A stretch of DNA of 64,000 nt from Bryopsis sp. KO-2023 (Eukaryota > Chlorophyta > Ulvophyceae > Bryopsidales > Bryopsidaceae). A model generated the notes under the pieces. It saw nothing but the letters and a program-made list of their open reading frames with translations, was not told where the DNA came from and did not search any database. Each line of letters opens with the position of its first letter. Position 1 is the stretch's first letter. Shown in pieces: positions 29,294-37,145 of this stretch. The translations under genes were made by a program, and so were the position numbers. The stretch spans positions 7,130,001 through 7,194,000 of the forward strand of contig BSYQ01000003.1 of assembly GCA_030272585.1 (NCBI GenBank), written 5' to 3'.

Positions 29294-31310
29294 CTACTTA
29301 TCACCATCCCTCCCAAGTTCTTCCACAGCTGCAACCAAAGCATGAAAGCAAATGTCAGATTTCAATCAAAAACATAATCAGCCAAAATCAGTGTTTTGCC
29401 AAAACCAACACAATGCCTACCTTCAAACCCAGCGATCACATCAGCCCCCATTGCCTCCTGAATTGGAATAGTGACTGCATCCAATCCGATTGTTCCAGAT
29501 TTGAAAATAAAGTTCTTCTGGTCAGCCAGCTCAACGGTGGCTTCGAGGAAAGCATCATCATTGCTTGCATCTATCAAGGCATCCTGAATCTGTTTGGCGA
29601 GATCCGCATCATCACCACCAGGAGCAAAAGACTCTGGACCCACCACGCTGTGAGATGGAACCTGATTATCAACATGCAGATCCCGGGTCTCAGTGTCAGA
29701 CTGATATTGAATGCTGAACCAACCCTTCATCCCAGATGCAAACTGTGAATGGTACGCTAAACAAAGAAGAAAAATGGAGCCTGAGAAACTTGGTATTTTG
29801 AAAAGGTGGCAGGCGGGGAGGATGGGGGCAGGGGCTCGCCAGCCAAATTCTGGGAATCGGAGAGGTGATGTTCACCTTGGCAATGTGGCAAGTCTCATAT
29901 TCGTCGACGCTTTTGCAACCCCCATCCGAACACAAGAGCATGAACTCGTCGGCATCTTCCTTTGCCCATTTCTCAGCATTTTCACCACCCTTTGCAAATT
30001 CAGGGATGGTGGAGTGTTTGATAAAGGCGACATCCCCAGCGTCTTCCATCAAGCACCTGAACGCTCCCTGATAATCGTAGTACCTGGTAGCCACAACACT
30101 GTGAAACCGCATGCCAAAATCCGAGTTTGCAGTATATGCATCGAAGCATTCACAAATATCTTAGGAAGCTTCACTCTGGACTTTTCTTAGGAAAATCCGA
30201 AATCCATTGGAGCTCCAAGGGGGCTTGATCCATACATACTTGGTACATTCGAACTAGTTTTTTTAACTTACTTGTCATGAACAGTACAATCTCCACCACA
30301 TCCACTGCAAAGGTTGTCCCATTTTTTCCCAACACCATCATCACCCCTGGCAGGTCCGTTTCCAGATGTCCTTGGGGCACACATGTCTGAGAAAAAAGCT
30401 GCGAATGTCTCAGCATCATCTTCAATATCGGCATCCTCACTGGTCGCCTCCAACACTCCGCTGTTCAAAAGGGCTCCCAGGGGCATGTACCATCCAGCCT
30501 GCGATTCACGATCAACAGGATTCGACGAATTCGAAAAATTATAGGGTGAACAAGGGAGCAAGCTTATGGAATGCAGATACTGTTTCGATTGTTGATCGTC
30601 CAAAGTGGAGCAGCACCCACCGTCTTACGGTAGCCAGTGTGGCACGATCGGGCTCCTCTCAGGTCCTCCAGGGTGACATCCTCATCGCAGAAATCCTATC
30701 CACAGCAAAGATCACTCTCTCATAAGCCCATATCCAAATCCACGGCGGAAAACCAGAGAATGCTTCTCCAGATCAGCGTACCTTGCGAACTGCGGCGACG
30801 GCGTAGTAGCTGGTACCGACACCCTCTCCATAATTCTCGAAGAGAACGGGGACCAAGCCAACTTGCCTGTTGGCCGTGAGCACATCGGCACCGTCCAAGG
30901 TACTCAAATGAGCATCGCCTTTGGCAATCATTTTCACGCACTGCAAACACCATCCTTCGTCAGATACTGATCTGTGGTTTGTGTGCATACAGTTCCCAGG
31001 GCGTATCGTCTCGAAGGTTGCAACACGACTTGGACACCCAGTCCCATCATATTTCGTTGCAAAGAGGGAGTTGAATACACGGTCGGTCTGCTGGTCCCCA
31101 GATCTGCATGCCCACCTCTTTCGTGCTTCCCCCGACAACACAAGAGAATTCGATTTCATCGGTATTGGCGGCGGCGAGGGCTTTGGTGCACAGCCCAGCG
31201 TACGCGGGGGGCTGATCGTAAGGTACGCACCAAACGACTTCTGTGGGTCCTGCATCTTGGGCCGCCGCCGAAACGAGCAAGACAGCCAACGAAATGAGAA
31301 GGGTGTTCAT
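29294..31310 (-). CDS. Single-lobe transferrin, iron ligands intact
   Basis: Secreted transferrin-family protein of one lobe. It starts MNTLLISLAVLLVSAAAQ, a clear signal peptide, followed by VVWCVPYDQPPA. Seven exons run to a short last exon ending GRDGDK (stop TAG at 29294-29296). Iron ligands can be aligned to human transferrin: Asp in STLDGADV (position 63 type), Tyr in GTSYYAVAAVRK, Tyr in YYDYQGAFRCL, and His in VPSHSVVG. The anion-site Thr of SCHTGYRKT is kept, but the usual Arg four residues later is Lys. Conserved disulfide segments (LCSGCGGDC, LLCSDGGC) and GDVAFIKHST are present. The likely role is extracellular or wall-associated ferric iron binding, as for Dunaliella transferrins (family knowledge). 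A tandem paralogue lies 2 kb upstream with the same exon plan. Confidence 0.93.
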
Positions 31311-33381: not shown

Positions 33382-36300
33382 CTATCTGTCACCATCCTCC
33401 ATGTCAGCCACAGCTGAAACAGAAAATCATGTGTCAGTTTCTCAAAACCCACCCATGAAAATTCACTCCAGGACTCAGAGAAACGATCAAATTCTCATGC
33501 CAGGTGTTTTCAAGGAATGGATCGTTCACAATGACTGTGCTGCAACTTTACCATGGAGGAAATTGTTGCATATCAAGCCGGCAAAGCTCTACTAATATTC
33601 GATCCTTTCCGTCCTCCATTGAGTTTTAGCTTATAATTCTAAAAAAGCTTCCTTTATAACTATCTACGAAAGAAGACGAATTGGTGAAAGTTTTTCAATT
33701 CAAAAGTATATAGAATCTAAAATAGAAAAAGAAGATTGTAAGCTTACCGTTGAAACTTGCGATAGTCTCTGGTCCGATCGCATCCTTGAAAGTGGTGGTG
33801 ACTGCATCCAGGCCGACCGTTCCTGATCGAAACACGAAGCTCTTCTGATCAGCCAGCCCCACTGCAGAATCGAGAAATTCAGGATCCTCGGCTGCTGCCA
33901 CCAATGCATCCTGAATTTTGGTTCCCAGCTCTTCCTTGTCTCCGCCAGGACCAAAATCTTCTGAGGCGACCACACTGTTTGCAATCACCTGCAAACAGAA
34001 TCATAGGACAGAAGCTTCTTGCTTGGTCCCGACCTCCGACACCAGATTTTCCATTCAATCATAGATGAACATTGGCTAAATCACCTCCTCGTGGACGGCC
34101 TTCGTTGGGCAAGTTTGCCTAATGTAAAGCAAATATTTATTCATAGATAAACATGGGTTTTTATCCTGTTTCAAATTCAGCCGTGGACCCCAGAACCAAG
34201 ATCAGCTTCTATTATCAGTCAGCTAATACCAATATTATGAACCCAATTTCCAGCAACCTATCTTTAGACTTGCTCCTTCCTTTCCTTAGCATATCTGCAT
34301 ATAGAGTTGGGAAAACCCACCTTGCCCAGGTTGCAAGTCTCGAAATTATCGATGGTATCGCAGCCCCCATCGGAACACAAGAGCATGAACTCATCAGCAT
34401 CTTCCTTTGCCCATTTCTCAGCATTTTCACCACCCTTTGCGAATTCAGGGATGGTGGAGTGTTTGATAAAGGCAACATCCCCAGCATCTTCCATCAAGCA
34501 CCGGAAAGCTCCCTCATAATCGTAGTACCTGAAATCCAACAAAGCAATGTTTCCTCCCCAAAATTCACACTTTACCACAGCTAATCCCCCACAAAAAAAA
34601 AAATTCTTCTGTACAGTCAAAAACTAATTAGGACACCACTCGTTTTATCCTATTTGGGTGTTATTTAAGGAACACGCATCCACTAACTCTCCTTCCTCGT
34701 TAGAAAAAGCAGGCAAAACACAAAAACACAAATAAATGAACTCATGTCCATTGCCAGTGAACGCAATACTTGTCATGAATGGTGCAATCTCCGGCACAGG
34801 CGCTACAGATTTCATCCCAAGGCTTCCCGTTTTTGGCCGGTCCGCTTTCAGGTGCACCTGGGGCACACATTTCGGAGAAAAACGACTCGAACGTTTCGGC
34901 ATCGTCCTCCACTTCATCATCCTCACTCACAGGTTCCAAAATCCCGTTGCTCAAAAGCACTCCAAGAGGCATGTACCACCCAGCCTAAAATTCACAGTTT
35001 TGAAAATAAACGAAATGGCAAACACAGTCCATCCAAGGAGAAACAGCAACTCAATTTGAAATCTATCGAAACATCAAACCAGAGGTTTTGGATCACAAGA
35101 TGGTGCCCTCACCGATTTATGGTAGCCAGTGTGGCAAGATCGACTTCCCCTCAAGGACTCGAGCGTAACATCACCTTCACAAAAGTCCTGAAAACGAACA
35201 AATAAAAGAAGCAATCATTGATACCAATATCTACTCACACACACATATACAGCCAAGATGATAGGCCCTCGAAACGATCAAACAATCATTTTCAGGGAAT
35301 GTTTTGATCCATCGTTTCATCGTTTCTCACCTTTCGCACAGCAGCCACTGCATAGTAGTTTGTACCAACACCAGCCCCATAGTTTTCAAACAGAAGCGGG
35401 ATCAAATCTGCCTCATTGCTGGTGGAAAACACATCCCCAGCACCGAAAGTACTCAAATGAGCTTCTCCATCCCCAATCATCTTGGCACACTAAAACACCA
35501 CCAAATTTCCAAATTTCAACATCTTCCCAAGGAAAAAAAATGCAATCCCGATACTTCTCGAGTTTTTCTTGAGAGGAAAAACTCGAGCGCACAATACCTT
35601 CATAGCGCTGCCCCCGATCATGCAAGAAAACTCGATCTCATCCGTATTTGCTGCAGACACAACCTTAGTGCACAGCCTAGCGAAGGCTGGGGGCTGGTCA
35701 GAAGGAATGCACCACCGGACTCGCCATTTCACCCCTTCCTCGTGAGACTGAGGTTTCGCCTTACTGTGAGTGTGGGGGAGATCCGCTTCATCGTGCTCAT
35801 GTCCATGGATTTCTTCATCGAGGTGGTCATTATTGTGAGTGTGGGGATGCTCATCAGTGTCGTGACCGTGAGGATGGGTCGAATCAATCTTGTCCAGTTT
35901 CCCAGAGTTGCTATGACTGTGAGGGTGGGTCCCTGGAGCGTGCGTGTGAGGATGTCCCTTTTTCTTCTTCTTGTGCGAGTGAGGGTGCTCATCCTCATCA
36001 TGCTCGTGGGGGTGCTCTTCATCAATCTCATCCTCTTCCACGTTTCCACTGTGGACATGGAAGTGGGTCCCAGGAGCATGCACATGAGGGTGCTCTTCCT
36101 CGTCCTCATCATGCGAATGGGGATGAGTGCCTGGAGCATGCTGGTGGGGATGATCTGGGCCAATCTCATCCCCAGCACCATCCTTGCTGTGCTTGTGGGG
36201 ATGCTCGTCAGCGCCGTGTGGGTGAGGATGACTCTCATCTTCGTCATGGCTGTGTGGATGCGCATCAGCATCGTGCTCATGGGGATGTTCCTCATCGATC

Positions 36301-37145
36301 TTGTCTTTCTTCCTGTCCTTGCTATGCTTGTGGGGATGCTCACCAGCTTCGTGTGGATGGGGATGCTCCTCTGTCTCATCTTCCTCGTCTTCATCATGCG
36401 AATGGGGATGGGTGCCTGGGGCATGTGGGTGGGGATGATCTGGCCCAATCTCATCCCCAGCACCATCCTTGCTGTGCTTGTGGGGATGCTCATCCTCATC
36501 ATGCGCATGAGGGTGCTCTTCCTCGTCTTCATCATGCGTATGGGGATGGGTGCCTGGAGCATGTGGATGGGGATGATCTGGCCCAATCTCATCCCCAGCA
36601 CCATCCTTACTGTGCTTGTGGGGATGCTCATCCTCATCATGTGCATGAGGGTGCTCCTCCTCATCTTCATCGTGGGTGTGAGGATCAGTGCCTGGCGCAT
36701 GCGGGTGTGGATGATCTGCTCCGATCACATCGTCTTCAGGGTTGTCGCTGTGCTTGTGATCGTGTTCGTCGGCGTCGTGGGGGTGAGGGTGTTCCTCGTC
36801 CTCCCCGCCATTCTCATGGGTATGAGGATGAGTGCCGGGCGCATGATAGTGTGGGTGATCCTCATCGATCAGGTCCTTTTTCCCGTCTTTGCTGTGTGTG
36901 TGCGGGTGCTCGTCGTCATCGTGAGGGTGCGGGTGCTCCTCCTCGTCGTGTGTGTGCGGATGTGTGCCTGGCTTGTGGGGGTGGGGATGATCGGGCCCGA
37001 TCTCGTCCTCCGCAGGGTCATCGCCGTGTGTGTGAGGGTGGGTTACGTTCTTGTGGGGGTGGGGGTGTTTCTTCTCCTGGGCCGCCGCCAGTATTTGCAG
37101 CGTGATCAAGACTAACGCCAACAGGCTTTTTCGCGGAGCCGCCAT
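33382..37145 (-). CDS. Histidine-rich repeat / transferrin-lobe fusion protein
   Basis: Start ATG at 37145 (MAAPRKSLLALVLITLQILA, signal peptide). A 72-nt in-frame extension upstream is less likely. Exon 1 (37145-35598) encodes about 440 residues of HPHxH-type repeats, then the transferrin lobe begins at VRWCIPSDQPPAF, near residue 475. Later exons mirror the neighbouring gene: CAKMIGDGEAHLS, SCHTGYHKS, YYDYEGAFRCL, and a terminal exon ending MEDGDR-stop at 33382. Two iron ligands differ from its neighbour: the Asp site reads STFGAGDV (Gly), and the His site reads VIANSVV (Asn). Both Tyr ligands remain. I count about 114 His in the array, with Asp/Glu spacers. It is probably a secreted metal-binding protein whose specificity has moved to the His array; that is inference. 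Confidence 0.92.
35750..37090. repeat. Coding minisatellite for HPHxH modules
   Basis: Imperfect tandem array inside exon 1 of the fusion transferrin. The protein unit alternates HPHPHAPGTHPHTH with DEDEEEHPHAHDEDEHPHKH and a spacer such as SKDGAGDEIGPD. A block of about 46 codons is nearly exactly repeated around 36.4-36.7 kb, while outer units are more diverged. This pattern fits expansion from the middle by unequal exchange. The array keeps frame throughout and also leaves long open frames on the other strand, which are by-products. Confidence 0.9.

Follow-up and report, generated by a model that had tools for sequence, protein, structure and literature searches.

Transferrins are the textbook carriers of ferric iron, and we know of no member of the family that carries mainly a metal other than iron. 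One account places the Asp and His ligands in subdomain 1, from where they contact the metal upon closure of the lobe, and the tyrosines and carbonate ligands in subdomain 2, and reports that an Asp-to-Ser change at the ligand place does not do away with iron binding in transferrin homologues (PMC7804310). Among green algae, the transferrin-like proteins of Dunaliella are described as acting in iron transport at the plasma membrane (PMC7676907), and phytotransferrin (FEA1, ISIP2a) as serving algal uptake of ferric iron with carbonate (PMC7972479). Capture of zinc by His residues is described for two secreted proteins, fungal Pra1 and cyanobacterial ZepA, and the His-rich C-terminal parts of Pra1 are said there to be flexible and unresolved (PMC12663325, PMC10957091).

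The Bryopsis protein presented here, for which we coined the working name TfH, consists from N to C terminus of a signal-peptide-like start, a His array of 445 residues and one transferrin lobe. Its gene lies in the window, by which we mean the whole stretch of 64,000 nucleotides that was analysed. A preliminary description of this DNA had placed the gene at 33382..37145, and those limits proved exact, with the ATG at 37145, a TAG that ends at 33382 and seven spliced exons whose six introns are all of the GT-AG type. When 10 other open reading frames of the window were compared with Pfam, one AAA lid and one sub-threshold SH3-like match were seen, and none was metal-related. In the features that follow, ligands follow human serotransferrin numbering, in which we take His249 to be the His of VPSHTVV, and the TfH residue numbers of the ligand places were counted by hand from the translation.

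33382..37145, minus strand: TfH gene from start codon to stop codon; 7 exons, 825 aa, continuous translation
37077..37145, minus strand: signal-peptide-like start, residues 1-23 (MAAPRK, hydrophobic core, AAAQ), from hydropathy and a helix model
35742..37076, minus strand: His array, residues 24-468; 445 aa, 37 HPHxH-type modules, units of about 46 aa
36579..36716, minus strand: array unit, residues 144-189, first member of the most similar pair by unit comparison
36441..36578, minus strand: array unit, residues 190-235, second member of the same pair by unit comparison
35598..35741, minus strand: remainder of exon 1, the junction and first ~46 lobe residues, in the array frame and homologous to ParB exon 1
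35331..35489, minus strand: exon 2, with Gly532 (at Asp63, 35442-35444) and Tyr561 (= Tyr95), from translation and ligand table
35113..35187, minus strand: exon 3, with the anion site, Thr589 (= Thr120) and Lys593 (at Arg124), from translation and ligand table
34770..34984, minus strand: exon 4, lobe, from translation
34321..34528, minus strand: exon 5, with Tyr670 (= Tyr188), from translation and ligand table
33748..33988, minus strand: exon 6, with Asn739 (at the iron ligand His249, 33977-33979), from translation and ligand table
33382..33413, minus strand: exon 7, ending VADMEDGDR and stop, from translation
29294..31310, minus strand: ParB, array-less tandem paralogue; signal peptide and single lobe, 379 aa, four iron ligands, from translation and ligand table

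At the DNA level array and lobe are truly fused. The 1548-nt exon 1 carries the signal-like start, the entire array and about 46 lobe residues in one frame, and the array-less ParB has the same exon layout, so that the fusion is independent of any guessed splice and the transcript check of exon 1 splicing, which had earlier been proposed as a confirmation, is unneeded to prove it. ParB and two copies on contig C8 (C8a and C8b) share the layout of TfH with an exon 1 of only 195 nt. Between TfH and the three array-less paralogues the exon lengths are equal except in exon 1 (1548 vs 195 nt), exon 4 (215 vs 227) and exon 7 (32 vs 35), and the comparison places the array within exon 1, with the signal peptide on one side and the lobe on the other. 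A position weight matrix was built on 42 introns from the transferrin genes of this genome, 24 of them from four well-aligned genes and the remaining 18 from four C6 lobes whose gene models are less sure; by this matrix no acceptor above 1.8 bits lies inside the array, the known acceptors having a median of 9.1 bits and a weakest score of 1.7. Exon 1 has a single strong acceptor, which scores 9.0 bits and falls at exon nt 1495, within the conserved start of the lobe. This acceptor belongs to the best-scoring of 32 candidate intron pairs in exon 1 (13 of them in frame), which runs in frame from nt 802 to 1495 with 17.1 bits, and a shorter transcript from which this intron would cut out half of the array and the lobe start is possible by score.

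Hydropathy at the start of the protein reaches 2.7 across LALVLITLQIL, residues 6-26 are modelled as a helix (single-sequence AlphaFold model of exon 1), and the AAAQ that ends this stretch is common to TfH and ParB. Neither a membrane segment nor a GPI-like tail was seen at the C-terminus, where the top 19-residue hydropathy mean within the last 60 residues is 0.55. The signal-peptide-like start, together with a C-terminus free of hydrophobic segments, points to a protein of the secreted type, for which the vacuole would also be allowed as a destination.

The array has 114 His in 445 residues, along with 123 Asp and Glu, 59 Pro and 29 Lys and Arg; the preliminary figure of about 114 histidines was exact, as that is also the number in the first 468 residues. 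Residues 1-468 contain 33 strict HPHxH motifs, or 37 modules when near variants are included, and these modules hold 110 of the 114 His, whereas shuffles of the same composition (n = 2000) yielded a mean of 0.96 strict motifs and a maximum of 5. The modules are mostly grouped by four in units of about 46 residues, and their spacing is regular: among 36 gaps between modules the spacing is 9 in 19 and 17 in nine, the others being 10-15. The Asp/Glu spacers that had been described beforehand do not cover all gaps. Of the four-residue turns found in the spacing-9 gaps, seven read APGT, two something similar, and the rest are acidic; the spacing-17 gaps form a 12-residue linker whose place 7 is Asp and place 9 Ile in 9 of 9 cases. 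No secondary structure is predicted for the array in the exon 1 model, which is of low confidence (mean pLDDT 47); this fits a disordered chain and weakly suggests one.

Differences between the units of the array concentrate at third codon positions. Between the most similar two (residues 144-189 and 190-235) there are 14 base differences, which are distributed 1/0/13 over the codon positions (P 6e-6) and correspond to a dN of 0.009 and a dS of 0.81 (dN/dS 0.01). Seven adjacent unit pairs, which are not independent of one another, sum to 58/59/155 differences (P 1e-15; 23 out-of-frame DNA alignment columns set aside), and over all 28 pairs of the eight units the rates of difference at the three codon positions are 0.20, 0.21 and 0.54 (129 such columns set aside). 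Because of this concentration at third positions we conclude from the sequence that the array is both translated and retained, and that strong selection acts on it as protein. Judged by dS it is also old, the value for its most alike pair (0.81) standing beside 0.76 for ParB vs C8a. An antisense frame of 616 aa across the array (35265-37115, plus strand) was rejected as a coding gene, since the length of its in-exon counterpart (505 codons) is equalled or exceeded by an antisense frame in 80 of 300 synonymous shuffles of that exon, exon 1.

What follows the array is a single lobe, as had been described: Pfam recognizes one Transferrin domain (PF00405) at residues 476-800 with an E of 6e-54, and hmmscan scores it at 183.8 bits against a cut-off of 20.3, covering 1-307 of the 328 profile positions. 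The only other Pfam match in TfH is a sub-threshold Phosphonate-bd, and a search for Fea1 (PF07692) found nothing at E up to 0.1. All 14 lobe cysteines are common to TfH, ParB and the single-lobe P0121, and the transferrin disulfide framework is thus kept. At the iron-ligand places Asp63/Tyr95/Tyr188/His249, TfH has Gly532/Tyr561/Tyr670/Asn739 and so retains two of the four, whereas ParB, C8a, C8b, P0121 and P0123 have D/Y/Y/H and P0124 has E/Y/Y/H. At the anion site Thr120 is kept and Arg124 is replaced by Lys, as in many of the algal lobes tabulated. Within the ligand table, which holds the C6 lobes other than lobes 3 and 5 of the seven, ligands are also lost from several lobes of multi-lobe proteins and from both lobes of chicken melanotransferrin, and for this reason the loss in TfH is no proof of a new cargo. 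Since an Asp-to-Ser change is reportedly tolerated in homologues (PMC7804310), the TfH lobe may still bind iron, if more weakly.

Constraint on the lobe is nevertheless apparent. Its dN/dS is 0.08-0.15 between TfH and the three paralogues, a rough value as dS there exceeds 1, and 0.06-0.08 among the three paralogues themselves; unique changes number 39 in TfH vs 25 in ParB (chi2 3.1, not significant), so that TfH is not clearly faster. These ratios argue for purifying selection. With its cysteines kept, a low dN/dS and two closing ligands gone, the lobe seems to be retained for some role, and that role is probably other than tight ferric binding. By its sequence TfH is a transferrin by descent that fails the ligand test as an iron-binding transferrin, and the metal relay that had been raised earlier is weakened, if taken as one to the iron site of the lobe, by the loss of two of the four ligands that the paralogues keep.

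Elsewhere in the genome (91.09 Mb, 28 contigs) transferrins occur at four more loci, of which three lie on C8 and one, a cluster, on C6; a sister copy on C8 is disrupted by an insertion. The phylogeny was computed on 29 of 35 aligned lobe rows, with six short or very divergent rows dropped and C6 lobes 3 and 5 out. It unites ParB, C8a and C8b (99/98) with TfH as their sister (100/99 for the four) and sets this group beside the single-lobe P0121, P0123 and P0124 (100/99 for all seven), and by this tree the TfH lobe groups with single-lobe transferrins of its own genome. The first 131 nt of exon 5 are nearly identical in TfH and the neighbouring ParB, and this stretch is probably a gene-conversion tract. 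No array was seen in P0121, P0123 or P0124, the full test being that of P0121, whose 382 aa include its start, as the sequences of the other two start inside the lobe. The same genome gave 107 light-harvesting exon matches; one Lhca aligned with PDB 6igz chain 7 at 264 of 264 residues, 6 of which differ, and an Lhcb fragment matched siphonaxanthin Bry-Lhcb1 across 133 residues, where we take 6IGZ to be a Bryopsis corticulans structure and Bry to stand for Bryopsis. On these matches the host is very likely a species of Bryopsis, and Bigelowiella natans, an earlier candidate, was dropped.

Searched against its own genome, the array has a single match, namely itself. In the protein database nothing matched at E up to 0.001 with 7979 candidates scored, a test that composition correction weakens, and the PDB gave none at E up to 10. 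HPHxH was absent from all 153 transferrin proteins (120 of the 196 matches of one search and 33 of 33 of another), and no His-array transferrin was found in the literature among the matches listed, a scope outside which the paper on the Bryopsis genome (Ochiai et al. 2024) falls. The architecture, which the preliminary description could match to no described family, is therefore undescribed within the scope searched, and the fusion is known from one genome. As a DNA pattern, paired HPHxH occurs in at least 117 prokaryote stretches and in 30 stretches of viral contigs, and 106 of the 150 frames with at least two HPHxH among the matches listed have exactly two. These frames share the module pair with TfH, but the richest (up to 38 HPHxH; best 14 of 150) are plain HPHPHP or HLHPH runs and not spaced modules. 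A putative coding frame in a Firmicutes MAG (L021) has 6 HPHxH and 52 His in 220 aa. In the best 14 of 150 frames inspected, the prokaryote and viral pattern scans showed no source of the array.

We give a probability of about one half to the reading that TfH is a divalent-metal binder of the secretory pathway, with a flexible chain of 37 modules and a relaxed lobe that would act as a scaffold or docking module and not as a tight ferric site. The protein would enter the ER and end in the cell wall, the medium or the vacuole, where the HPHxH chain could bind many divalent ions (Zn, Cu, Ni, Co, perhaps Fe2+), with one module or more per ion. Side-chain coordination is the natural mode of Pro-spaced histidines, and the Pro between the His would favour coordination by imidazole only. 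Its role may be to scavenge or buffer metal for this siphonous seaweed; extracellular metal buffering is plausible, and scavenging, storage and detoxification fit the sequence data equally. More tentatively, TfH might be a secreted algal metallophore that carries tens of Zn, Cu, Ni or Co on its regular chain and is recognized for uptake through the de-ironed lobe, a version we regard as doubtful; to our knowledge, no protein metallophore has been described in the green lineage.

His-rich acidic chains can also act in adhesion, gel formation and pH buffering. The array might thus form a metal-cross-linked gel or adhesive of the wall or of a wound plug, with the lobe concerned only with secretion or anchoring, and a long, repetitive, apparently disordered chain of His, Asp, Glu and Pro with regular spacing would suit such a function in Bryopsis, a siphonous coenocytic alga of the kind that must seal its wounds. 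We consider this unlikely: a gel former should allow its sequence and spacing to drift, whereas selection on the array is strong, the lobe retains all its cysteines, and residues 1-468 offer few cross-linking residues (1 Tyr, 1 Phe and no Cys). An improbable role as iron feeder would have the array take Fe2+ or colloidal Fe3+ and hand it on, either to the relaxed lobe of TfH itself or to ferric transferrins such as ParB. A tandem ParB with all four iron ligands, the additional transferrin loci on C8 and C6 and the two Tyr, Thr and Lys of an open half-site in the TfH lobe would all be in keeping with this, as would the lack of an FTR1 match in the genome (in a search whose control matched in 4 of 14 genomes). 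Nothing indicates that TfH and ParB make contact, however, and the metals preferred by imidazole arrays are Zn, Ni, Cu and Co.

The secretion-type start, and an array composition that resembles His-rich glycoprotein, would also be compatible with pH-dependent binding of polyanions or membranes, with an antimicrobial role through the withholding of metal, or with detoxification when metal is in excess. To these roles we would give little credence, as the acidic excess (123 Asp and Glu vs 29 Lys and Arg) disfavours polyanion binding at neutral pH, and by sequence they are inseparable from the reading as a secretory-pathway metal binder. That TfH is instead a non-working gene, a decaying paralogue in which a repeat has expanded, might be suspected from the ligand loss and from the broken sister copy on C8, but it is very improbable and in our judgement already contradicted by an 825-codon frame intact across seven exons, by the dN/dS of 0.01 for the array pair and 0.08-0.15 for the lobe, and by the retention of all cysteines.

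In TfH the lobe has lost exactly the two ligands that close upon the metal, and the same protein has gained a His chain under strong selection, which suggests an iron carrier rebuilt into a binder of other metals. If metal binding is true, the protein would illustrate a path from iron carrier to general metal binder, would bear on how trace metals are gathered or tamed in giant seaweed cells, and would offer biotechnology a natural, regular, high-capacity metal-binding repeat. New here are the constraint on the array, the loss of the closing ligands and the placement of the lobe among single-lobe transferrins of the same genome.

With the single-lobe algal transferrins (PF00405) TfH shares lobe homology, 14 cysteines, the exon layout and a half-site of two Tyr and Thr, and it differs from them in its 445-aa His array and in the loss of Asp63 and His249. 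Lobes that went beyond plain iron carriage are also found in saxiphilin, the inhibitor of carbonic anhydrase, an otolith matrix protein and the C-lobe of melanotransferrin, and we know of no His array in such ligand-poor animal transferrins. The chicken melanotransferrin C-lobe, like that of TfH, is without Asp63 (Gly) and His249 (Gln). The C-lobe of human melanotransferrin has also lost both anion ligands (PMC7804310), whereas TfH retains Thr120 and has the Lys that is common in algal lobes of this kind; melanotransferrin, moreover, has two lobes and a lipid anchor, and TfH has one lobe and no hydrophobic C-terminus. The Dunaliella transferrin-like proteins resemble TfH by description alone, being of transferrin type and from a green alga, and phytotransferrin is a functional analogue from a different family; TfH is without a Fea1 match. 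Pra1 and ZepA are unrelated to TfH by Pfam, a scan of which showed no homology to the Pra1 metalloprotease fold, and where these proteins capture metal with a few His sites, TfH sets 37 modules on a transferrin lobe.

The start of exon 5 is nearly the same in TfH, the gene that joins the histidine array to a transferrin lobe, and in its array-less tandem paralogue ParB: the first 131 nt (window 34528-34398 and 30083-29953, respectively) carry just 6 differences, whereas identity is 62–77% over most parts of the remaining lobe, a disparity that points to probable gene conversion between the two tandem genes. Further transferrin sequences occur elsewhere in the Bryopsis genome (G000), and an open frame lies antisense to the array:

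G000:C6:6364977-6378606 (L013-L014), single strand, seven consecutive transferrin lobes, 1.7–2.5 kb apart
G000:C8:4006378-4014453 (L011, L012), additional single-lobe transferrin copy, exon 3 split by an insertion
window 35265-37115, +, antisense open frame of 616 aa across the TfH array

The C6 run could be either a multi-lobe transferrin or a set of tandem genes. Among the five of its seven lobes tabulated for ligands, lobe 1 has lost Tyr95, Thr120 and Tyr188, three have Glu in place of Asp63, and the final lobe has Pro where His249 is expected. The C8 insertion spans ~8.1 kb, and both the ACACC at either side and its termini (TGTGACG/CGTCACA) look like those of a DNA transposon.

FTR1 iron permease gave no match in the whole genome (a control search was positive in 4 of 14 genomes) and ZIP gave 35 exon matches, so that iron uptake in this alga may draw on transferrins and ZIPs.

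The antisense frame was rejected as a gene because codon content accounts for it. Among the 14 richest frames inspected, the prokaryote match with the closest likeness to the TfH array is a frame from a Firmicutes MAG (L021:757-798), with 6 HPHxH and 52 His in 220 aa.
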